DNA of 64,000 bases from Plicaturopsis crispa FD-325 SS-3 (lineage: Eukaryota; Basidiomycota; Agaricomycetes; Amylocorticiales; Amylocorticiaceae), in contig KN832554.1 in the NCBI GenBank assembly GCA_000827205.1, positions 2,353,612-2,417,611 on the forward strand, read 5' to 3'. Position 1 is the first letter of the stretch. Each line of letters starts with the position of its first letter. Both the position numbers and the translations under genes were made by a program. Under the pieces are notes generated by a model that worked only from the letters and a program-made list of their open reading frames with translations, had not been told where the DNA came from and did no database searches. Shown in pieces: positions 31,203 through 59,133 of this stretch.

Positions 31203-31379
31203 CCATATCGTAGAGGAATGGCCCGGATCGGGACGGTCGGCCCGGGTAGTGCGGCACTGCTAAATACCGCTGAAGATTCACCGCTCCAGTGACCGATTTT
31301 CGTATCGATTTATCGATTGGCTGGCTGGTGCACATAGCGACACCGACGATCATGCATATGCACTCTAGGGGTTGACTAC

Positions 31380-44936: not shown

Positions 44937-45451
44937 GAGGTGCGCAGACAATTTTTACTTATTCACTTCAGACATTCATTTGTTGACAGGCATTTGGTCA
45001 TGCTTGGGACGTATTAACCCAGTGGAGGGCGACACAGTGTGTATGAGACGAGCGTGATGACCGCGTCGACCCTAAGGAGTATGGACATTTCCAAGCCAAC
45101 CTTGTAAAGTTTGACCAGAGCAATCCTTATTCTGCAATATGTTACGGCAGAGCTGCAGCAGATGCACACGCTCGAAAGCATTTGACTCAGGTGCCTACTT
45201 TGGAGAGTCAGCATGAAGTTCTATTCCTATATTGAGTGTAGGGTCTATACTCTCGGGCGTATCATCTTTGCCTCAGCAGGCGAACACGCGAAAATGGCCC
45301 GCTCCTGGGCGTTCGATAAGGTCCAGGGTGTCCTCCGTCTAACTTATCTTGGAGAAGATGTCCTTGAGGCCAACGTACACTGAATCCGCAGCAGCGCCCC
45401 ATGGAATGCTAAGCATCATATATCATCTCTGGATGACTGCCCAGTACGCCC
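44937..45451. other. Intergenic, with a block shared with the next BTB promoter
   Basis: 515 bp, no gene seen. Bases near 45358-45398 (GTCC-TGAGGC-AACGTA-A-TGAA-CCGCAGCAGC) resemble 47917-47955 upstream of BTB gene 3, so the duplicated unit included 5' flanking DNA. Confidence 0.5.
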
Positions 45452-46811
45452 ATGTGCTCTCAGTATTCCCCCGACTTTTCAGTCGAGTCTCTCCCCGATA
45501 GTGACATGGACACCACCTTCAGTTCGCCAGTAGTGAATGGCATGTCAGTGCGGTCAACTTCGGAGTCGTCTGAAGTCTCGTGCGCCGCTGCAGACGCTAC
45601 GAAGAACGCCAGCGACTCAGCCCTTCGCCGGCATGAGAAATATTTCATGTCTGATGGAAACATAACCTTCATCGTGAGTCGGACGTGCAGGTAATACGAT
45701 AGAATGAAAACTGACTGGCATGCTCACCTAGGTCGAGAATGATATGTACTGTGTCCATCGCTACTTCCTGCAGCAGCACTCGCCGTGGTTCCGCGACCTC
45801 TTCGAGCGCTACGGCATAGCGCCATCGGACGCAAAGTTCGCTGGTCAGGATCCCATTTTGCTGGCAGGCATCCGGTCGCTAGATTTCGCGCGGTTTTTGA
45901 GTGTACTATATCCATCGTGAGCGTGTTACGCCCAATATTGAGACGCTCACTAACGGGATGTCCGTGCACACAGGAAATTCGGCATGCACGACGTGTCGAC
46001 TGTGGATGAATGGACATCTATCCTCGAACTCTCCGCGCAGTGGAACTTCGTCGACATCATCTCGCTTGCGACCAAGGAGCTCGCCCGCATCGTGTCGCCG
46101 GTGGAGAAAGTCGTCCTCATCCGCAAATACCATGTCCACATCGCCGCAGCGTGGCCAGCCATCGTCAAGGGCTGTGAGGGGCTTTTCGGCGCAGAGAGAT
46201 GCGACATGGAGGAATGGCTCGGCGGGGCGTACCACGCAATCTTCACGCGCGACGAAGATTTGACGCTGGAGGAGGGTGAGAGACTGGGGATGGCAGAGGT
46301 GATCAAGATCGCGCATGCGCGTCGGGCCATGCGGGTATCCATGACGTTTGTAGACGAAGAGACCAAGGAGAAGATTATCGAGGAGGCCATTGGGTGTGAC
46401 GAGCGCGTCGTGGCTCCAGACGCACCTGTCGTCACTGCCGAAGCGCCTGTCGCTACTCCGAACGTGACTGCGGATGCATCTGCTGCACCGGTCCCACCTG
46501 TCCTTGGCTCTGGCGGGCCTCCCGTCACGCCGCACGCAGTCCCCTGTTCAGTTTCCGGAGGTCACGACCGCAGACCGACGAAGGCGAGGCTGTCGAGCTC
46601 ATGGCTGGCAGAATTTGCGAGGGATACACCTTCGCAATACTGCGAGGAGACTAATGACTGTTCAGAAGGGGGTGAGACGGGTAAGAAGGGGAGCAAGGCA
46701 AAAAAGAAAGACGACGAGAGAAGGGAAAGAAACGAACTCGGCAAAATGAAGGAGGGGAAAGGAAGAAAGAAGAGAAAAGGGTTGGCACGGGAGCTCACAT
46801 CACGCATATAG
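45452..46811 (+). CDS. BTB/POZ domain protein 2, 414 aa
   Basis: Exons 45452-45673, 45732-45916 and 45974-46811. The leader carries FSVESLPDSDMD, a motif shared with BTB proteins 3 and 4. The BTB core reads KYFMSDGNITFIVENDMY, VHRYFLQQHSPWFRDLFERY, SLDFARFLSVLYPS and DEWTSILELSAQWNFVDI. A helical follow-on (LARIVSPVEKVVLIRKYHV, EDLTLEEGERLGMAEVIK, IAHARR) is common to the set. The tail is Ala/Pro/Val-rich, then very basic and acidic by turns (KKGSKAKKKDDERRERNE). A nuclear or adaptor role is likely but unproven. Intron positions and phases equal those of its neighbours. Confidence 0.87.
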
Positions 46812-48008
46812 TCACAGGTGACAGCGACGGACAACCAGGACTGTGCGATAAAAAACCAGGTTCGGGGCGCGTGCAAATGTAGGCTGTATGTTGATTGATC
46901 TTGAACGGCTTTGGCAGACACTGCTAGCGGCAGAGTAGCACGAAATATTCACTGGAATAAGATACATGAGCACTATAACTTTGAAGACAAGGCGACACAC
47001 ACCTTCTATTTAGCGGCACCATGGGCGCTTGCAAATCGGCGTGATAAATAAAGTGTAGTTGCGGACTCATCGACTCATGATTTGCTTGCTGAAGGAGAGA
47101 ACATTGTCAATAGGGATCAATATGTCTACAGTCAATTGCGACTTCAAGCATAAGCTCGATGTCTACTTGTATATGTGTAGACTAAGTCACGAAGCTAGTG
47201 CCGCGAGATGATATGAGCTTCTGCCAATGTCTCTGGAGGTTTTGGATACGGCGCACCTCTTATAATGGCGTCGAATGCAAGGGCGGGGCAGGCAAGACAC
47301 ACACCCAGACCTTGACCACAAGTGCTTGAGCTGCTGCCTCGACGTATACTCAACATCGGCGTGCAAGTGCACCTGTAACGGATTCGTCGTAGCTCGAGTC
47401 CTAGAAATCGCACGAAAACGCCACGCCGCCAGTCCGCACGTCGGTGCGCCGTCATTGCAACTTGAGGATACGGCCATTGAACGCGTTGTTGGCATAACGC
47501 CTTCATTTGCTTGTTACTAGCCGGTTTATGGCGGGAAGTGTAGCATGTTCAAGTAGCAGCAGCTCGGACAAGTCTAAAGATGAGGCCTAGGAGGTGCGTT
47601 GGACCGATTCTTGGGCGCTTCAGCGTCGGTCAAGCAAAATCGCGGAGTTCAAAACCTGACTTCGTACTTCGTCGGTTTCGTCGGACGCCCACCAGCAGGT
47701 GCACTCCTCATAAGTAACTCGTTATAAGCTGTAAGTACACCCACCGTCTCTGACCGAACGCGTACGATGTTCTTGTTTTTGCATTCACCACAGGGCCACG
47801 TACATGTCCCCCGGGCGTATCTTCCCCTCCCCAGCTGGCGGGCACGCTAAACCCACGCGGCACGTCAAAAACCCGCAGCGAAATGCCAATTGCACCGAGT
47901 CTTGTCCCCGAAGCACGTCCTCGAGGCAGACGTAGATAGAACCCGCAGCAGCAGCATACAGTAGCACTTAAGCCTCGATTCCCAGGGCAGACGCCCGCTT
48001 GAGCACCC
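46812..48008. other. Gene-free interval
   Basis: About 1.2 kb. No supported gene. The last 100 bases resemble the flank of BTB gene 2 (see 44937-45451). The minus frame 47708-48397 runs antisense through BTB gene 3 and was not accepted. Confidence 0.4.
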
Positions 48009-49377
48009 ATGTACTCACAGCATTCCCCCAGCATCTCAGTCGAGTCCCTGCCCGACAGCGATATGGACAGCGCCCCGAGCTCGCCCATCATGATGGACGA
48101 AAGCCCCCTCGTTGATAAAATCAACGCTCCTCGCAAAATCGACGAGAATCCCCAAAAACCTGTCGAGGCAAAGGACGACAGCCGCTCGCCGTTCCTCCAG
48201 AACGGGAAATACTTCTTCCCGGACGGGACAGTGACCTTCGTGGTGCGTCTGCTGCACCCGACTGCCAGTATAGATAAACGGGCTAACACGTGTGATACGC
48301 AGGTCGAGGACGAGCTGTACAGCGTACACCGCTCCTTCCTGGAGCAGCATGCGCCGTGGTTCCGCGGCCTCCCACGCGGGAGCCACACGCACCCCATCCC
48401 GCTCCCCGGCGTCCGCGCGCGCGATTTCGACAGGTTCCTCAGCGTGCTCTACCCATCGTACGTCTCCCTGCATATTCATTTCGTACTGTTCACTCACAGT
48501 GCTGCACAGGAAAATCAGCGCGCGCGACGCGTCGAGCGTAGAGGAGTGGACGTCCGTGCTGGACCTCGCGGCCCGCTGGGGCGCCGCGGACATCGTGCTC
48601 CTCGCGACCACGGAGCTCGCGCCCATCGCCTCGCCCGTCGACAAGATCGTCCTCGGGCGCAAATACTACGCGCCCATCGCCGCGGCGTGCCCTATCACAG
48701 TATCATTTTGGGGAAGTGTGGACAGCACAATAGAAAATATCGGGGAGTGGCTGCGCCGGGCATACCGCCCGCTCTTCGCGCGGGAGGAAGATTTGACGCT
48801 AGAGGAGGGCGAGCGCCTGGGGATGGCGGAGGTGATTAAGATTGCGCACGCGCGGCGTGAGAGGCTGCTTATGAGACGGACGCCGAAGTCGCGACAGAAA
48901 GGCTACGAAAACATTGACCGCGCTACGGAGAACCTCGTCCAAGAGGCGGTCGGCGTCGAGGAGCCCCCCGTCGTGGCCATTCCGCCGGACGCTACCCCAA
49001 ATGAGGCTCTCGCTTCCCCGAACGTGGTCGTTCCTTCCCCTGGTGAGGCTGGTGCTGCCCCGAATGAGGTGGCTGCTAGCCCGAACGAGGCTACTGCTGC
49101 CTCAAATGAGGTCGCTGCCGCTCCGAATGATATTCGCGCTGCTCGCGATGCTCTCTTCATGCGCATCTTTAACCCAGGCGGTGCCCCCGCAGTTCCGTGC
49201 AAAGACACCGGCGACAGCGCAGACAAGACCGACGTGGACGAGCCGAAGGGACCAATGTCTGAGGAAGAAGACGATGCGAAAGGAAAGAAAATAGGCAAGA
49301 AAGGGGGCACTGAGGAGAAGCTATTCACGGATGAGTACGCTGGCAGCAAGAGAGCAAGAAAGGGAAACACGTGGTGA
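48009..49377 (+). CDS. BTB/POZ domain protein 3, 418 aa
   Basis: Exons 48009-48242, 48303-48457 and 48510-49377. Leader ISVESLPDSDMDSAPSSP; BTB core GKYFFPDGTVTFVVEDELYS, VHRSFLEQHAPWFRGL, RARDFDRFLSVLYPS and EEWTSVLDLAARWGAADIVL; follow-on ELAPIASPVDKIVLGRKYYA, IGEWLRRAYRPLF and EDLTLEEGERLGMAEVIK. The core is about 13 residues shorter than in protein 2 in the loop after WFRGL. The tail holds about six degenerate 7-13-residue repeats of the type xAPNEVAA (bases 48990-49130) and a Lys-rich end. The stop TGA lies inside GTGAGT, a perfect splice-donor sequence, so a further 3' exon is conceivable. Confidence 0.87.
48990..49135 (+). repeat. Coding repeats (APNEVAA-type)
   Basis: Degenerate in-frame repeats in the tail of BTB protein 3, each with Pro-Asn-Glu or Pro-Asn-Asp/Val as the constant core. 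Absent from the neighbouring paralogues, so a recent internal expansion. Confidence 0.6.
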
Positions 49378-50051
49378 GTCCGTCTCAGATATGTTATATT
49401 AGAGACTCCTCCTACTAGTGACCTTCATCAGGAAAAACCTGTATCGCGAATTTGAAATTCTTGGAAAAGTATCGATTCTTGCAATCCGGGAGGTCCAAAG
49501 AATTTCTCACTCGCGTTTATTATGAATTTGCGTAGCATTTCGACTCGGATAGAATCTGTCCCAATTCATCTGACTTTGTTATCTAATTTTTCTCTTATTG
49601 ACCGAAATGGCAAGACATTCAAGACATGACAAAATCAATCGCATTAATAATTGACTACTTACGATGATACTAGACGGTCATTTCTGCGCTCCGTGTCGTC
49701 CGCTCCGGCGACGGCCTCCGAGAATAACATGTACAAACAATTTTCAAAGGGCACTACATAGTATCTGCGAGCCTGCTTGAAACTAAGCTCATGGGAGACA
49801 TCCTGTCGCCACTACTTACTAATACTGGTGCTACTAATCTGTAGTGCTCGCATACTGTGGTTCGCAAGTGCCACGAAAAGCCGCCGCCCTTGTATCGCGA
49901 TGCCAGTCTATCTCTCGCCGCCGCCTCAACTGGCGCGACTCGAACGATCCAGCAACAGCAAGAATGATAGACTAGATGACTCTGTCAACTAAAGCATGAC
50001 ATTAATGATGCGCGCCCTGAGGTCGTATACTGCAATTGCGTCCCAAAGAGT
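49378..50051. other. Gene-free interval
   Basis: 674 bp between two convergent BTB genes; 3' flanks only. AT-richer than its surroundings. No gene seen. Confidence 0.4.
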
Positions 50052-51119
50052 TCACTTCTTCCCTTTCTTCCCCTTCTTCGAACAACAGCATTCCTCAGGA
50101 TCACACTTGCCGCCCTTCTTCTTCTTACTTCCTACCTTGCTGCCCTCCTCGTCCCCTTGCACTTCCACGCCCACAGCAGGCATCTCCTCCTCCACCCCAA
50201 CTGCCTCCTCGACGATTCGCAGCATCTTGTCCTTCCGATCCGAGTCATACCCGCCGCCGCTTACAAGCACTGCCTCGCGCCGCGCCCGCGCGATCTTCAC
50301 CACCTCGACCATCCCGAGCCGCTCGGCCTCCTCCAGCGTCAGGTCCTCCGCGCGCTCGACGATCGCGCGGTACGCCCCGCCGAGCCACGCGCGCAGGTCG
50401 CATGCGGCGCCGAGGGGGACGGGGTACGTGCGCCCGAGGACGAGCTTGTCGAGGGGGGCGGCGACGCGTGCGAGCTCCGTGGTGGCGAGGAGGATGATGT
50501 CTGCGGCGCCGAAGCGGGCGGCGAGGGCAAGGATGGACGTCCACTCGTCGACGGTCTTTGCGTCGCGCTCGCTCACTTTCCTGCGGATACTTAGGGTGTG
50601 AGTATTATGGGACGCGGGGAGGGAGGGAGGGGGAGACGCACTCTGGGTACAGCACGCTGAGGAATCTGTCAAAGTCGAGCGCGCGGATGTCTGGGAGCGG
50701 GATGGGGGCGACTTCGTTGTGCGCGATGAGCTCGCGGAACCACGGCGCGTGTTTCTGCAGCAGCGAGCCTTGGACGTTGTAGAGCTCGTTCTCGACCTGG
50801 GGACATATAGAAGATTCGTTAGCGCGTGAGCTGAGGAGTCGTGGGGCGGACGCACGACGAAGATGGCGGTCCCGTCGGGGAAGAAGTATCTGGCGTTTTT
50901 GCTGGGCGGGGGGCTGTCATCCTTCAAGAGCTCTGCAGGCTCAGCGTCGAGCATAGGCTCTGGGGACTTTTCGTCAGGAGGAAAGCTGGCATTGCTCCCC
51001 AAGAAGTCCTCAGTCTCGAGCGGAGGCTTCTCCATGGGCGAGCGTGGGGCGCTGTCCATATCGCTATCGGGCAAAGACTTGATGGAAAGGCTGGGAGAGG
51101 GCGCAGTGTACATGGGCAT
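50052..51119 (-). CDS. BTB/POZ domain protein 4, 315 aa
   Basis: Minus-strand exons 50856-51119, 50642-50796 and 50052-50580. Leader LSIKSLPDSDMDSAPRSP, nearly the same as in protein 3. BTB core ARYFFPDGTAIFVVENELYN, VQGSLLQKHAPWFRELI, RALDFDRFLSVLYPE and DEWTSILALAARFGAADIIL; follow-on ELARVAAPLDKLVLGRTYPV, LRAWLGGAYRAI and EDLTLEEAERLGMVEVVK. In place of the usual VHR/VHRSFL it has VQGSLL. The tail is shorter than in the others and ends in a Cys/Lys cluster (KCDPEECCCSKKGKKGKK), which could bind metal or be lipidated. The gene is inverted relative to its three paralogues, so the array includes an inversion. Confidence 0.87.
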   Translation of the reverse strand: MPMYTAPSPSLSIKSLPDSDMDSAPRSPMEKPPLETEDFLGSNASFPPDEKSPEPMLDAEPAELLKDDSPPPSKNARYFFPDGTAIFVVRPPHDSSAHALTNLLYVPRSRTSSTTSKARCCRNTRRGSASSSRTTKSPPSRSQTSARSTLTDSSACCTQSASPPPSLPASHNTHTLSIRRKVSERDAKTVDEWTSILALAARFGAADIILLATTELARVAAPLDKLVLGRTYPVPLGAACDLRAWLGGAYRAIVERAEDLTLEEAERLGMVEVVKIARARREAVLVSGGGYDSDRKDKMLRIVEEAVGVEEEMPAVGVEVQGDEEGSKVGSKKKKGGKCDPEECCCSKKGKKGKK

Positions 51120-51629
51120 ACTCGATGGGGGGTGTTAGACCTAGCATCTAAGGCTTAAGAGCCATCGACTGCTGCGGGTTCTATGCGCGTTGGCCTCGAG
51201 GACCTGTTTCGATGACGCGAGTGGGCTTGATATATACTGTGCAGGTCTTTATTGAGCGAGCGGGACCGCGTGACGTCAGCGTAACCGTGAAGTAATGAAG
51301 GCAAAATGCTATTGCAGGCTTCCGAATTAGAGCTAGATTTGATTGCGACGTTGCCAAAGCGTCGCCGCACAACGTACGTAGAGTGCGGGATGTCTCCAGC
51401 GCACGGTAGCTCGTGCGGCCCAGCTTGTACGACCTGGTGAGGCGGACGTGGAGGCGTTGTTGTGTCGTCGTAGTCTCTGCGATAGCCGGAACCTGCAAGC
51501 TACCAGCATATATCACCAATCAAACCAACATTCCAGCAGTCAGAAATGCCATTCGGAGCCGAGGTAGTCGCATAGTAAGTACGGGCAACCGTCCCTTGCT
51601 CGTCTCGCTGCACACATGACCAACAGAGC
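51120..51629. other. Promoter flank of BTB gene 4
   Basis: 510 bp upstream of BTB gene 4. No gene seen; short frames on both strands only. Confidence 0.35.
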
Positions 51630-52720
51630 GGTCGGCGGCTTGCAAGTCGTGACCGAGACACTTCTGCCTGTAAGCCGGCACGGAGCGCCCTTGCGACTTC
51701 GATCGGTGACCGCGGACAATTGCAATTGTGACCGCCGTGCTTCCGATTGGTGAACGATTGGCCGCATATGCAATCAGTGACTCTAGGGCCTTCGAGCGCC
51801 TGGAATTGGTGTGTGCTTGGTCTGCAGCCGGTGACCAGGAACCCTTGAGATCGCGACCACCACTCCTTGGAATCCTGACCGCGCGCCTGCAATCGGCGAC
51901 CGCGAGTGAATAATCGGTGAGAGCCAATATTTGGGCGGTGTCCGCGAAACATGCGATCGGTGACCCCAGACATTTGGGCGGTCACCGTGGACTCTCGAGA
52001 TTATGCCCGCGCGCCAACGATCGGTGACTGCAAATTGAACGGAGACCGCGAAACATTTGGATCGGGACCACAAGCCAGCGATCGGGAATCGCAAACATTT
52101 CGGTGCAGACCACCAAACATCCAGGCGGTGACCGAAAAATATTCGGGCGGGGACCACGCAGCGTGTAAATGCTGACTGCGAAACAGGGCGCCCACGATCA
52201 TTAGGATCGAGACCACCGAGCCTTGAGATTGAGAATGCGCTGGGCCCGCGATTGGTAGCCACGAAACATCTGGACGTCGAAACATTGAAACGTTTGGGTG
52301 CGCAAACGTTTGGGTATAGACCGCAAACGTTTGGGTGCAGACCGCCTACGATCGGAAGGAAGGAAGGAAGGAAGGAGCTGGATATTAAGGTCCCCACTGG
52401 AAACTCCAGAGTGCGTACTACACATACGGACGTAAATATGTGCTACTGCCTATACCTGAGTCGTGTCGCTCTGAGCAGCCATCCTTCGAAATATACAGAC
52501 CCCGGCCAAGCAGTAAATCGGTGTAGACGGGTTCTCAAATGTTCGGGTGCGGACCACGGATGTTTGAAGGTGATACAGCAAGCCAGCGATCGGTGTTCGC
52601 AGGGCCTTTGATTGACGACCGCGAACCTATGAGGTAGAGACCACTGCGCCTGCAAGTAGCGACTTGAGCTAGCAATCGATGGCTGCTGCGCGTAGAATCG
52701 GTGACCACTGCCACTGTCGG
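51630..52720. repeat. Degenerate ~21-bp tandem repeat array
   Basis: Over about 1.1 kb the plus strand repeatedly shows CGGTGACCGC or a variant (TGGTGAAC, CGGCGACC, CGGGACCAC, CAGTGACT), followed after 6-10 bases by GCAAT, GCGAT or GAGAT. Unit length is about 20-23 bp, with some double units. A subset inserts AAACATTTGGG (51940-52350). Units differ by 20-40 percent, so it is an old minisatellite. The array breaks around 52380-52530, where a spacer and a GGAA microsatellite sit, and resumes to about 52720. Minus-strand frames of up to 204 codons inside it are by-products of repeat composition. Confidence 0.7.
52354..52376. repeat. (GGAA)n microsatellite
   Basis: Nearly six consecutive GGAA units inside the spacer of the ~21-bp repeat array. 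Confidence 0.9.
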
Positions 52721-53008
52721 CGTCGATCATTCCCCAGTCATAAGCAGCAGCCACGGTATATTCACGTCGACGTACGTACGGGGTGTACAGATGCGTGGGA
52801 GGTGCACACAAGCACGTCCGTCTCGAAGTCTGCACCGAAACGCGTCTCCTTCAAGGCCCAAGCCGGTCCCATGCAGACGGCATAGGCGTGTGCGTTCGAG
52901 CGGACTGGGAGGTGGTGGCGTGGACAAGATAGACTTGGGCTTATGCATCGTGTATCTCTCGCCGTCTTCGCCGTCGTCGTCCTACACTCCTTCTTGAACC
53001 AGAAATGA

Positions 53009-53607
53009 TCACGCCTTCCTTCTCCCCGAGCTCACCCTCCCTAAGAACAGACCGTCACGGGCCTCCGCCATGCTCACGACCTCCCCAAGTGCACCCCACC
53101 CACGCGCGTTGACGCGAGCGAGGCGGGCTTCCTTTGCCTCGCGTAGCTGCTTCGCGGGGTTCGTGCTTGTGGACGCACGGGCAGGCGATGATGGAGCGGG
53201 GGGAGGGCTCTGCGGGTTCCAGCGTCCACGAGTTTTGTAAAACGCCGCACGCGTCCATGCGAGGTGGGTGGTGCGGAGGCGGAGGAGGTTGAGCGTGAGG
53301 GCGTGGGGGAGGCCGCGGGACGCAGCCGCGCGCGTGAGGAAGGAGAGCGTTCCATCGACTGTGCATCTTAGTCAGCGTGTAGTAAGAGGGTCAGCAAAAG
53401 GGACGCACGCCTATTGTCCCATATCGTCTGCCAGTGCGGGCGCGATTTGCGGCCGCGGTAGAGGAGGTGGGCGTTGCGGGCCGCGGCGCGGAACACGGGG
53501 CGGTACAGTCTGCGTAGTGCGCGCGTGGCTGGTGGCTGGGCGAGTGTTGCAGCCCGGGAAACGCGGAGGAAGAGGCGGTAGGCGGCGCGCAGACTCGGGG
53601 GCAACAT
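53009..53607 (-). CDS. Small basic protein, possible LYR-motif mitochondrial protein, 182 aa
   Basis: Two exons, 53409-53607 and 53009-53358, joined in phase. The protein begins MLPPSLRAAYRLFLRVSRAA; the AYRLFLR stretch near the start and the following RRLYRPVFRAAARN resemble Complex1_LYR proteins, which act in mitochondrial Fe-S transfer or respiratory-complex assembly. The N-terminal 60 residues are Arg/Ala-rich without acids, as in a mitochondrial presequence. The C-terminal half (LRLRTTHLAWTRAAFYKTRG, then AKQLREAKEARLARVNARGW) is basic and helical. The exact LYR tripeptide context differs from the consensus, so the family call is tentative. It is divergent from the GGPP synthase gene with only 93 bp between the starts. 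Confidence 0.6.
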
Positions 53608-54829
53608 CGCCGTGAGTGACTTGTGAGTGACGTCGAGAAAGAGGGAGGTGTCACGTTATGGAGTAGAGAGAACGCGCGTGACTAGCGTGACGCGCCTGAT
53701 ATGGAGCCGTACCACGACCTGCTCGCGTCCCTCCGCGCATCATCCTTGTCGCCCCCCGCACCCCAAGACGACTCTGCCCTGCTCGAGCCGTACACGTACC
53801 TCGCTAGCCACCCGGGAAAGGATGTCCGCACCCTCCTCATCCACGCTTTCGACCAGTGGCTCCACGTCCCCCCGCAACGTCTCGCCCGCCTCACCCGCAT
53901 CGTGTCCATGCTCCATACTGCGAGCCTCATGATCGACGATATCGAGGACGATAGCCAGTTGAGGAGGGGCGTGCCGGTGGTGCATAAGATTTATGGCGTT
54001 CCGCAGACGATTAATAGCGCGAATTATGTGTATTTTTTGGCGTATGAGGAGTTGAGCGCGTTGAGGAGAGAGATACCGGACGCGCCTCAAACGCCATCTC
54101 CGTCTGCGAGCAACGAGGCCGCGCGCCAGCCACCCGAACGACTCATTGAGGAAAAGGACCTCGATAACATCGTCACCGGTGAGTGCTGTCTCTTTCGTTT
54201 GCCCTCCGCCCCCTGTGACTTCCACTTCGGGCGGGCTCGCGTCGTATGCTGCTATTGAATATGCCCTCCCGTCCCTCCCGCGTATTTATCCTGTCCGTCC
54301 TTACTGCCATGTCTTTATTGCGCCCGTTTCCCTTCATTGGAACTATTCGCGCGCACCTACCTTCCCTCTTCACGTCGTCCCACCGCGTTCACTGCTTTTA
54401 AATTCGATTCATGCGCGTCTTCCTGGCCCACTATCTGGCACCCCCTCCCACCCAGTCCGATGCTTCGCTTCGCCGCATTTCGTGCATCTTCGTCGGTCAT
54501 CGCAGAATTTAGATTTCGTTCACATCCCCAAGTCGACTCTCATGCAGCGTCCTTCCTGTTATAACGCTACTCCGGCTATTACACCGCTCGTGTTCCACCC
54601 TTGCGCATCGTTCAGCGCGTTCTCGAGGGGGCCCGGGTTTTATTTCTCGCTGGTGCTCTGTCATGTTCCGCCCCATCGTCTCCGTTTCCGCCACGCGTCG
54701 TCTAGTCTCTTTGGTTACAACTCGCTTTAACTACGCGTCACTCTTCACTTCGACCGTTCTCTCGTCTGCTTCTGCCGCGCATCTCACAACTCTAGCGCGC
54801 GGCTGTCTCTCACCCTCACCCTCCTCTTC

Positions 54830-55705
54830 CTCACCCTAACTAACCCCCAGCCCTTCACAGCGGAGCTCCTCGCCCTCCACCGCGGCCAGGGCCGCGAGCT
54901 GCTCTGGCGCGATACCCTGCATTGCCCGACGGAGGCGGAGTATGTGAGCATGGTTAATGATAGTGGGTGTTTTGTTACGTTCTTTTGGGTTGGGTGGTTG
55001 CTCACTAAATATTTGAATGACTTGACGTACCGCGACCAATTCGAACGACTACCAATCACGCTGCGATGTGATGAACGTACCAATCCACCGAACACCGACG
55101 TACCACGACCGACTACGGCGAACACGCACACAGAGACGGGCGGCCTGTTCCGCATCGCGATCAAGCTCATGATGGCGTGCGCGACGACGAGGCTCCAGCT
55201 CTCCTCTACTTCACACCTTTTTATTCCACGACTCTCTTCATTGCACATTCTCCCGTCTTTTACGCGCTTTCCCCAACCCTAACTAACTAACCCCCCTCCC
55301 CCTTCACAGCGGAGCTCCTCGCCCTGCACCGCGGCCAGGGCCGCGAGCTGCTCTGGCGCGACACGCTCCAGTGCCCGACGGAGGCGGAGTATGTGAGCAT
55401 GGTCAATGATAGTGGGTGGTATTTCCTTTTGGGTGTTTTTTGGGGGAGGGCTGACCGTGCCAACGACCGAAATTAATGATGACCACCGACGATGTACCGA
55501 CACCCACCATTACTACCGATACATATCGCTCACCAATCACCGACTCACCGCCGACACCTACCACCGACGCTAACCTGCACGACGTACCGCCACCACCGAC
55601 CACCCACCTCCCCGAATGACGAACGCACGCACAGAGACAGGCGGCCTGTTCCGCATCGCGATCAAGCTGATGATGGCGTGCGCGACGACGAATGTGGACG
55701 TGTGC
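54830..55705 (+). repeat. Tandem duplication of an exon pair in the GGPP synthase gene
   Basis: Copy 1 exons at 54861-54962 and 55134-55195; copy 2 at 55310-55411 and 55635-55701. The 102-bp exon pair members differ by only a few bases and code the same residues save His/Gln at one place; the splice acceptors (CTTCACAG, CACACAG) are also shared. Introns have diverged far more than exons and differ in length. Copy 1 has no donor after CGACGACGAG, where copy 2 has GTGTGCGTG. Confidence 0.85.
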
Positions 55706-56003
55706 GTGTCTCATCCTCTCCTCCCATTCTCCCCTTCTCTTCCTCGTGCTCTTTCGCGTTCTCCTTCATGTGCCCTGTGCTCGGGCATCATAAGTCACGA
55801 GTATGAGACCGCATGCTAACCTGACGCGGGCACCCAGGGACTACATCCCGCTCGTGAACCTCATCGGCATCTTCTTCCAGATCAGGGACGATTATACACT
55901 ATGCCCAAAAACTTGTGTCCGGTTGTCCAATACGTATTTTAGGCCTCTAGACCTTAGATCTTCAGAGGGGCGTAAGCACCGCCGCCAGCGCGCTGATGTG
56001 GAC

Positions 56004-56068
56004 GCGCATCGAAGGTGTCGCAAACGCGCATCGAAGGTGTGGCCGCGCATCGAAGGTGTCGCAAACGT
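56004..56068. repeat. ~22-bp tandem repeat, three copies
   Basis: CGCATCGAAGGTGT occurs three times, twice followed by CGCAAACG. It lies in the foreign tail of the GGPP synthase frame, 110 bp after homology ends. Confidence 0.85.
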
Positions 56069-56073
56069 AGTCC

Positions 56074-56122
56074 GAGGCGCTGACATGTGCGTAAGTCGAG
56101 CGCTGACATGTGCGCAAGTGAA
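56074..56122. repeat. ~22-bp tandem repeat, two copies
   Basis: GAGCGCTGACATGTGCGYAAGT-type unit twice in direct succession, right after the previous repeat. Confidence 0.8.
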
Positions 56123-56382
56123 AGAGTTCGCAGGCATATGCATGCCATTTAATTATGTGCAGAAGCGATGCCAGTCTATGAAGAGAGGGGGACGAGGCCG
56201 AGCGGCAATGTTCTAGTATCAGAATGATGGTAACTTTGAGCGGGTGCGGTCGCCCCCCGACGATATCCCCAGCACACATTAACTAAGCAGTATCCTGCGA
56301 ATGCGTCGGTGAGCGGCGTGGGGAACAGGGAATGATGCCCAGTGAAAATCGGAGACCGATGAGACTACTGGGGATATTTCGG

Positions 56383-57501
56383 TAGTCTCGGATCCAGCCG
56401 TTGTCGGAGGTTGAAAACACACGACCCAAAACCTCCTACAACGTCTGGTGCACTCAGTAAGAGACACCCCCCATCGGGTCACTTCAGGGGCGTCACGCCC
56501 CCAAAATGGTGCAATCCGTTACCACTTGTAACTTTCTGTGACCGATGTCACTCCCGAGCAAGGTGCGCGCGATCTGCACTTACTTACCGTTCGACGTTCA
56601 ACACTGTACTTATCAGCTGAGTACAGGACGCGCCAAGTACGCGCTCTATATGACACATATGCTCTCTGATGTATTCGCTGGGCAAGCTTGAAACCTCGCT
56701 TCTTGGGTCTCGCCGGTTGACTTGCTCAACGCGACGCTCCCGCTGTCCTCGATCTTTACGCGGCAACAAATGACTCGGATGGTTGTCTCTTGTGAGAGGG
56801 CCTGCTGGACTGAAATGTTTGGTGGCCTACGTCTCTTGCTGGTGGGAACGGAAATGGGGCTTCACAGACGCGGCAGAGGACGGTAGGTGATAGTAGAGTT
56901 TGTCTGAAGGTGCGTTGACAGTTACTGGGAGCTCAAGTTGCACGCTAATCACGTCTTCAGCCTGCGAGCTAGTGCTGGCTCGTCACCACCATCGTCGGCC
57001 GTCCTTTCCGAGACATGCCTGTCGTACGGGCGTTCCGAAACCGCTAGATGCCGCCCTGCACCCCTCGCCCTCCATTTGCTGCTTCGACGACTCGGAACTC
57101 TGTATCAAGCTTCGAGGTCTACGTCGCCGTTACTCTCCTCCTTCGGTATCGTCTGCTTAGCAGTGCTCGGAGTCTTCGGTTTGGCCGCGTACATGTTGGG
57201 TGTGTATTTATCGCATATGTGCATACCATACTTTGAATCCATACTTTTCTCGACTACACGATATGGACATGTGTGAGATTGGTTTGTACTATGTACGTGC
57301 CAACAGCACATTGTGTATTTTATACAGCTTCAAGTGCAAGTGCGGCCTGCGCCCGTAGGCGAAAATTCGGGTTACTGTATTTGGGGCGTGACACCCCTGA
57401 AGTGACTCGATGGGGGGTGTCTCTTACTAAGTACACCAGACGTTGTAGGAGGTTTTGAGTCGTGTATTTTCAACCTCCGACAACGGATGGGGACGAGACT
57501 A
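56383..57501. mobile_element. Inner inverted-repeat element (element A), Mutator-like, 1,119 bp
   Basis: Ends are TAGTCTCG...CGAGACTA. The terminal inverted repeats are about 125 bp: 56383-56508 matches the reverse complement of 57377-57501 with only scattered differences (shared blocks CCGTTGTCGGAGGTTGAAAA, AAAACCTCCTACAACGTCTG, AAGAGACACCCCCCATCG, TCACTTCAGGGG). The 9-bp direct repeat ATATTTCGG flanks it at 56374-56382 and 57502-57510. Long inverted repeats with 9-bp duplications fit Mutator-like elements. The 870-bp interior has no transposase; frames at 56900-57276 show one possible hydrophobic stretch but no motif. It inserted into the left arm of element B, so it is the younger of the two. 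Confidence 0.8.
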
Positions 57502-57860
57502 ATATTTCGGAAACTTTCCGAAACTCGAAAAATCCCTCCAGGCATATTTTAGTAAATAACTGTCCGGGCTCTTGTACCTTACACAGACCGTGAGTAGCTG
57601 CAATCCTTGTAAGTTATCCCTTTAGGTGTTTTAGCTTGATAATGCCTCGAGGGATATGCTTAGGTCTTTCCCTTGAGGAGAATTAATATCAAATGTCCTT
57701 GAATGTCCCCGGGATAGATTGCTCTGGAGGTACTTATTCAAAGGGTTATATTACCTGAAGTGATTTCAGAGCTAAAAAGCGTGGACACCTTTGGGTGATA
57801 TTCCGCCTTAACAGATATCTGTTTCGATTAGTCCAAAGCGAGGGACCGTAAAAATGAAAT

Positions 57861-57945
57861 CATGCGGTCGTGCGCGGCTCGAACGAGCGCCTACCGAGCA
57901 CCACACCCAATCCGCCATGCGCTGAACCGCTAGACCATAGTGTCG
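57861..57945 (-). other. tRNA-like sequence with box A and box B
   Basis: On the minus strand, TGGTCTAGCGGTT (57925-57937) matches the RNA polymerase III box A and GTTCGAGCC (57876-57884) matches box B, 40 bases apart as in tRNA genes. The T-arm stem can pair, but the seven bases before box A cannot pair with those after the T arm, so no acceptor stem forms. It is a tRNA pseudogene or the head of a tRNA-derived SINE carried in element B. Confidence 0.5.
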
Positions 57946-58399
57946 AATAGACTGATTGTTTTTACCATCATTATAATCTGTAATCTTTGCCCGACATATG
58001 TATAAGTCTTGAACCCCATTCAACGCTGAAACCGGTCCACAAATATTGTGCGCAAAATCACTCCATGGAAATTGATACATATCTAGCTGAATCTCAGTAA
58101 AGGTTAACATCTATGAAGACATTTTTGCATAAATGTGGCTTAAGACATTAATGAGATGTTTTACATCAAGTTGGATAACCTTTCATTTTCCCTCAAGGCA
58201 AGAAGCACCTGAAACCCCTCAATGGTTTTTACCAAGAAAAGGCGTGGAGCATTGGTCCTCCAGGGATTTACTGCACGATTTGGCCTAGACTCGTGTCCAG
58301 TCTTCGCACGCAAGCCACGTGCCTTTTTGAAGACAGATAGGGAAGGCGCGAGCTTGCGAGCGGACTGGTCTTACTGGTCGCGCTTTTGGCAGGGAGCCA

Positions 58400-58906
58400 C
58401 TTTCCCCCGCCAACTGTGACTCGGCACTTAAAAAAATACTGGCTCTCAACACTAAAAAAAGTCATTTTTCTGACCTATATAAGAGTGATTTTTGAAGCAT
58501 TTGGATGCGTATGAACGCAACTTTTTTGTCGAAAATTTTTCGGAGTGGATTTCAACCATCCGCGAAACTGTGAAGTCCCCGACCTCGCCGCGCCGCGCGT
58601 CAGTTTGACACCGATTGGCGCTTTGCAGCGTGCTTCCGCAACGACGTGGTCCTTTCTCAACCTCCGGAACGTGTTCATCCTATTCATTGGGCACTGAAAT
58701 GTATTATACAGCACAACTAGCAAAGAAAACGAGCCCGAAATGAGTGGTACAGTGCAGTTAATCGCAAAAAACCCCGATTTTTTTTCTTTGCACCATCGCA
58801 TTCGCAACGCCGCAAAATCGGTTTTTTGTTATATCAATTTGAGCACTTTTTTTCGACTTGGAGGCCTCGAAAATTCTAAGTCCAAAGTCACACTTGGCGG
58901 GGGAAG
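58400..58906. repeat. Inverted repeat pair inside element B
   Basis: 58400-58430 and the reverse complement of 58877-58906 share CTTTCCCCCGCCAA, GTGACT and ACTTA in register (about 30 bp, few mismatches). This may delimit a third, about 0.5-kb nested element; weaker similarity continues outward to TGGC on each side. No convincing target duplication was found. Confidence 0.5.
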
Positions 58907-59133
58907 CTGTGACTACGCCATGTGACTGACCAGTAAGTCCAGCCGCTTCGCCCGAACGTGTGAGGTCCGAAGTGGCTGGATATATCGAGCCTAGATTTGG
59001 CCGAAGAGATCTTTCAACAAAAGTACGTCCAGATGAATTGACCCGAATCGGCCTTGAGGGATTTTTCGAGTTTCCGAAACTTTCGGAAACTTTCCGAAAT
59101 ATCCCCGGTAATCTTAGTGTTCTGGAAAATCGG

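Follow-up and report, generated by a model that had tools for sequence, protein, structure and literature searches.

A broken GGPP synthase copy with exons 2 and 3 doubled: relic of a truncated gene or fault of assembly

The closest described relatives of the gene analysed here are the GGPP (geranylgeranyl diphosphate) synthases deposited in the PDB, such as 6c56, 6r4v and the yeast protein YPL069C (2dh4), together with chains labelled as terpene synthases (6v0k and 7s0m) and the Pfam family PF00348 (polyprenyl synthetase). We take this group of GGPP synthases, common enzymes that build lipids, to be the one designated type III. The N-terminal three quarters of the domain are common to these proteins and to the present gene, as are DDIEDD, FQIRDDY and the HRGQG block, whereas the part that follows FQIRDDY is missing from the gene and its exons 2 and 3 are doubled. 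Truncated gene relics beside transposons are generally known, and the locus is like them in its mid-exon break, in that no conserved remainder was found within the window (the whole stretch of DNA that was analysed, 64,000 nucleotides) and in the nested inverted-repeat elements that lie downstream. It differs from them in that the exon parts before the break are free of stops and frameshifts on the path through the second exon copies and in that the break is not an element edge. The elements themselves recall Mutator-like elements, which are characterized by long terminal inverted repeats and a target duplication of 9-11 bp, and the non-autonomous copies of which lack a transposase.

A second basis for comparison is provided by haplotype duplications in fungal assemblies and by divergence between fungal strains. 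Haplotype duplications have been reported as a difficulty in assembling the genome of a dikaryotic fungus (PMC10995626); one would expect them to appear as near-copies in series, with exons that are alike and introns that have diverged, whereas the duplication seen here extends over only about 450-500 bp and is a single case in the window. In at least one mushroom, strains have diverged strongly: the parents of an S. commune cross were reported to be 14% apart, with crossovers located preferentially in exons under stronger negative selection (PMC4209137), and S. commune has been called the most polymorphic species known (PMC9187340).

In this study, the frames and splice sites of the gene, which opens with the ATG at 53701, were read from the sequence, and the reading was compared with Pfam and PDB matches. 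The features of the gene and of its continuation, given as positions in the window, are as follows.

53701-54178, + strand: exon 1, from ATG to ...DLDNIVT, with DDIEDD inside; the frame and the donor GTGAGT at 54179 were read directly, and the best PDB matches cover residues 22-122 of the query.
54861-54962, + strand: exon 2, first copy (exon 2a), 34 residues; the donor GTGGGT at 54963 is present.
55134-55190, + strand: exon 3, first copy (exon 3a), cut inside the exon and so without a donor.
55191-55282, + strand: stretch of 92 bp between the copies, with a faint, unconvincing likeness to the end of intron 1.
55310-55411, + strand: exon 2, second copy (exon 2b), with one amino-acid difference (H to Q).
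55635-55701, + strand: exon 3, second copy (exon 3b), with the donor GTGCGT at 55702.
55838-55895, + strand: exon 4, broken off after FQIRDDY, from the sequence reading and PDB alignment.
55896-56216, + strand: non-homologous continuation of 106 open codons with a TAG stop at 56214-56216 and a 22-bp tandem repeat inside, from frame reading and codon statistics.

The spliced path runs through exon 1, exon 2b, exon 3b and exon 4 and comprises 235 enzyme codons, open and in frame through the second exon pair, which end with FQIRDDY at 55895; the exon parts before the break contain no stop or frameshift on this path, in which the donor of exon 3b was picked for keeping the frame. The spliced product matches PF00348 with 168.1 bits against a cut-off of 27 (E = 2.6e-49), covering profile positions 3-189 of 251 only, and the Pfam search returned no other family for it. 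PDB chains labelled as GGPP synthase or terpene synthase match with E values down to 1.2e-57, and DDIEDD, the first Asp-rich motif, is encoded in exon 1 and aligned with the PDB members. Both searches bear out the identification of the locus as a GGPP synthase gene, which had been proposed in a preliminary description made from the letters of the sequence. In protein searches, relatives were confirmed in 13 of 49 candidate stretches from prokaryote genome contigs, all of them distant (28-37% identity), and in none of 21 candidate stretches from viral contigs. Intron 1, taken up to the first copy (54179-54860), is 682 bp long, which is longer than expected for a fungal intron, and appears pyrimidine-rich by eye.

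Exons 2 and 3 are present twice, in tandem and in the same orientation, and each of the two repeated blocks takes in one of these exons together with the last part of the intron before it (intron 1 for exon 2, intron 2 for exon 3). The first direct repeat pairs 54844-54969 with 55293-55418 (spacing 449 bp, 93% identity) and the second pairs 55093-55190 with 55594-55691 (spacing 501 bp, 84% over the block). BLAST self-matches agree with them and lie far beyond chance (54836-54969 with 55283-55418, 92.6%, E = 1e-50; 55119-55190 with 55620-55691, 93.1%, E = 2e-23). The two copies of intron 2 are diverged, with many indels, yet they remain alignable and homologous, with a score of 87.0 against a shuffle mean of 42.3 (s.d. 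6.3) that was reached by none of 300 shuffles. Both copies of exon 2 possess a donor and a TTCACAG acceptor, the donor of exon 2a being identical to that of exon 2b, and the match of the first copy stops at 55190, within exon 3 and ahead of the position of the donor. The preliminary description had reported the two exons twice, 449-501 bp apart, with diverged introns and a frame kept by the second copy, all of which agrees with these repeats and with the open path; its further statement that the first copy lacks a splice donor applies to exon 3a but not to exon 2a.

Recognizable homology to the enzyme stops at FQIRDDY, as had been read earlier from the translation: Pfam matches up to residue 236, the one directly after the Y, and the PDB alignments run on to residue 241 with almost no identities there. 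The loss of the C-terminus that had been claimed on this basis was also found when a C-terminal probe was compared with the six frames of the whole 64-kb window by tblastn, which gave no credible continuation. With E values up to 50 allowed, the probe produced 95 rows, two of which had E <= 0.1; these two (E = 0.012 and 0.049, at 17 kb and 38.7 kb, far upstream) were rejected as being without a conserved motif, and the best row downstream of the break had an E value of 6.0. Neither a complete second Asp-rich region nor the C-terminal helices were found by the profile match, which ends at 189 of 251, or by tblastn with this probe. With the C-terminal quarter of the domain gone, and with it the remainder of the second Asp-rich region, the product would be expected, judging from the family, to have no GGPP synthase activity.

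Downstream of the break lie two nested elements.

56353-59124, no strand assigned: outer element, the ends of which are Mutator-like and form degenerate terminal inverted repeats; it lies between exact copies of GAAAATCGG (56344-56352 and 59125-59133) and is interrupted by the inner element.
56383-57501, no strand assigned: inner element of 1119 bp, the ends of which are Mutator-like and form inverted repeats of 122 nt (91%); it lies between exact copies of ATATTTCGG (56374-56382 and 57502-57510).

The inner element lies within the left-hand terminal repeat of the outer one, and its flanks, when joined, give a sequence that matches 59017-59123 inverted; the two ends of the outer element fit each other with a one-base asymmetry. 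On the + strand of the window, GAAAATCGG occurs only at the two outer flanks, with one further occurrence on the minus strand at 31293, and ATATTTCGG only at the flanks of the inner element, with one occurrence on the minus strand at 59094, in the other end of the outer element. The inner element combines long terminal inverted repeats with a 9-bp flanking duplication, the features by which an element is recognized as Mutator-like, and both elements resemble non-autonomous Mutator-like elements in their terminal inverted repeats and in the 9-bp duplications at their flanks. Two nested inverted-repeat elements with 9-bp duplications are, we assume, traces typical of this class. No transposase was found by Pfam in the few open frames searched, and the one frame of the inner element that was searched (56908-57273) had no Pfam match. 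The break at 55895 coincides with the edge of neither element, being separated from them by 448 bases that contain the 22-bp repeat. A Tc1-like terminal repeat directly after the break had been suspected by eye and was rejected, there being no second end within the window. The 24 bases after the break match only themselves in the window at up to three mismatches and had no match as a pattern in viral contigs, and the best other window stretch for the 36 bases after the break has 16 mismatches.

Elsewhere in the window, 19 frames (10 + 9) were searched against Pfam and 10 of them had any match. Those above the cut-offs were ELP1, BTB, sugar transporter, aldo-keto reductase, clathrin adaptor small chain, RRM and carnosine N-methyltransferase; F-box-like and bacteriorhodopsin-like matches fell below the cut-offs. 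Together with the introns, this set of families suggests a fungal source, perhaps a basidiomycete. A possible two-exon gene on the minus strand at 53000-53607 stands head to head with the GGPP synthase gene, with its ATG at 53607 and 93 bp between the start codons. The start of this neighbour resembles an LYR motif by eye and had no Pfam match, either as frames or spliced, and its being an LYR-motif protein is a guess. A cluster of three related stretches occupies 45449-51211, with 66-82% DNA identity in pieces and one stretch inverted, and one of three frames searched in it had a BTB domain match. Short tandem repeats of about 21 bp, some with AAACGTTTGGG, occur at 51915-52345. A stretch on the minus strand at 57857-57950 looks tRNA-like by eye, and ARAGORN and Rfam report nothing for it; over the whole window, nothing was found by ARAGORN (bacterial code) or by Rfam at gathering scores.

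The differences between the exon copies bear most directly on the origin of the duplication. A count of synonymous and non-synonymous differences, which the preliminary description had proposed as a check, gave seven synonymous and one non-synonymous difference (H/Q) among the eight found over 53 compared codons (159 bp), corresponding to dS = 0.21, dN = 0.008 and omega = 0.04. The compared exon parts of the first copy contain no stop and no frameshift. The probability of at most one non-synonymous difference in eight is 0.0003 with both copies free and 0.007 with one copy free, as calculated from a simple binomial without mutation bias and from few differences. This pattern suggests that both exon copies were under constraint during their divergence, which probably took place while they belonged to two functioning genes. 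Since a redundant pair inside one gene has no clear reason for constraint, the divergence is better placed in separate homologues before the join. The earlier proposal that selection acted for a while after the duplication is thus upheld with regard to constraint on the copies but not with regard to its timing, which would fit better before the two were brought together.

The account that we regard as rather probable is that two diverged homologues were joined, in the cell or in the assembler, with the pure assembly form included. The upstream part, from exon 1 to the cut exon 3a, would derive from one homologue and the downstream part, from exon 2b to the cut exon 4, from another; the homologues may have been paralogues or else alleles, if the fungus carries two nuclei or is highly polymorphic. 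They would have diverged while separate, after which an out-of-register join inside the gene would have left exons 2 and 3 twice; exon 4 then breaks off into non-coding DNA next to the mobile elements. Both the join and the truncation may have arisen either in the cell, through unequal recombination or the insertion or deletion of an element, or in the assembler. This account is favoured because constraint on both copies is hard to explain in one gene with a donorless exon 3a. In its simple form, it predicts that 55191-55282 comes from intron 1 of the second homologue, and the alignment of this stretch is unconvincing: its score was reached by 7 of 300 shuffles against the tail of intron 1 with free ends, by 38 of 300 when almost the whole of intron 1 (54185-54835) was used and by 71 of 200 in an anchored alignment, and the stretch is about as alike to intron 3 (12 of 300). 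Such weak likeness either counts against the simplest join or would mean that intron 1 has diverged beyond recognition. The small number of differences (eight in 159 bp) and the use of a simple binomial without mutation bias also speak against the account.

The joining of two homologues could be a pure artefact, in which the assembler strung together both haplotypes of a single intact GGPP synthase gene before running into a repeat, and the locus would then not exist; we regard this form as possible but doubtful. The 5' part of one homologue followed by the 3' part of the other is the order that a haplotype switch would give, the break at 55895 is near mobile elements, and dS = 0.21 would fit very diverged alleles if compared with the 14% between S. 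commune parents (PMC4209137). However, N runs are absent from the 64 kb, and in the self-comparison of the window (blastn, E up to 1e-5) the four remaining same-strand matches show 71-82% identity, with no second near-identical local duplication. The absence of N runs and the low identity of these self-matches argue mildly against a general assembly problem. An assembly error that duplicated 450 bp, as considered in the preliminary description, may nonetheless have occurred.

A tandem duplication inside one gene, with the second pair in use, the first pair decayed and the 3' end later lost to mobile elements, which comes near to the pseudogene of the preliminary description, appears unlikely. 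The same orientation of the tandem copies, the open path kept by the second copy and the homology of the intron 2 copies, which no shuffle of 300 equalled, are all as this reading would have them. However, an unused copy should carry non-synonymous changes, and one in eight is few even with only one copy neutral (P = 0.007); in addition, neither a stop nor a frameshift has arisen in those parts of the first copy's exons that were compared. That the pairs are alternative exons subject to mutually exclusive splicing is highly improbable since, although both copies of exon 2 have a donor and the TTCACAG acceptor and both coding copies show signs of constraint, exon 3a is cut at 55190 and lacks a donor and the splice sites of the first pair are incomplete, and the products would differ at one of 53 compared residues, which leaves nothing to choose between.

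The sequence after the break had been described as 107 foreign codons running through 22-bp repeats; the open tail and its repeat (3.1 copies at 56002-56067) are present, but the count is 106 codons and a stop. The GC content at codon positions 1, 2 and 3 is 0.62, 0.40 and 0.80 in the enzyme part and 0.58, 0.54 and 0.54 in the tail, which is therefore without codon-position bias, and none of the six frames has a lower codon score than the tail frame (-0.136), although this score is rough, having been trained on few window frames and the enzyme part itself. Because of the absent bias and the low score, the tail does not look like evolved coding sequence, as judged by composition. A functional chimaera of a truncated prenyltransferase with a new 106-residue tail is hardly credible: the frame does stay open, and 106 open codons in that very frame were reached by 46 of 5000 shuffles of 55896-56343, but a frame of this length somewhere in the six was reached by 717 of 2000 shuffles, one minus frame of the same stretch is likewise open for 106 codons, a tandem repeat lies inside the tail and no Pfam family other than polyprenyl synthetase is matched. 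Where the preliminary description had left a choice between a pseudogene and a chimaeric transcript, the pseudogene is the better of the two, and a selected new tail finds no support in a sequence without codon-position bias. It is also very far-fetched that intragenic recombination of two diverged alleles gave rise to a catalytically dead GGPP synthase fragment with a newly captured tail, which an intact promoter would express and which would regulate or partner the real enzyme.

In the sequence as given, this apparently fungal GGPP synthase copy is broken, and the locus looks like what is left of a truncated gene or like a fault of assembly rather than a new protein; as biology it is ordinary. 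If the locus is real, it would be one example of the out-of-register joining of diverged homologues within a fungal gene, in which exons but not introns are conserved. In the case of an assembly fault, it would caution that a join of this kind may be annotated as an exon duplication. Either way, knowledge of GGPP synthases would be unchanged.
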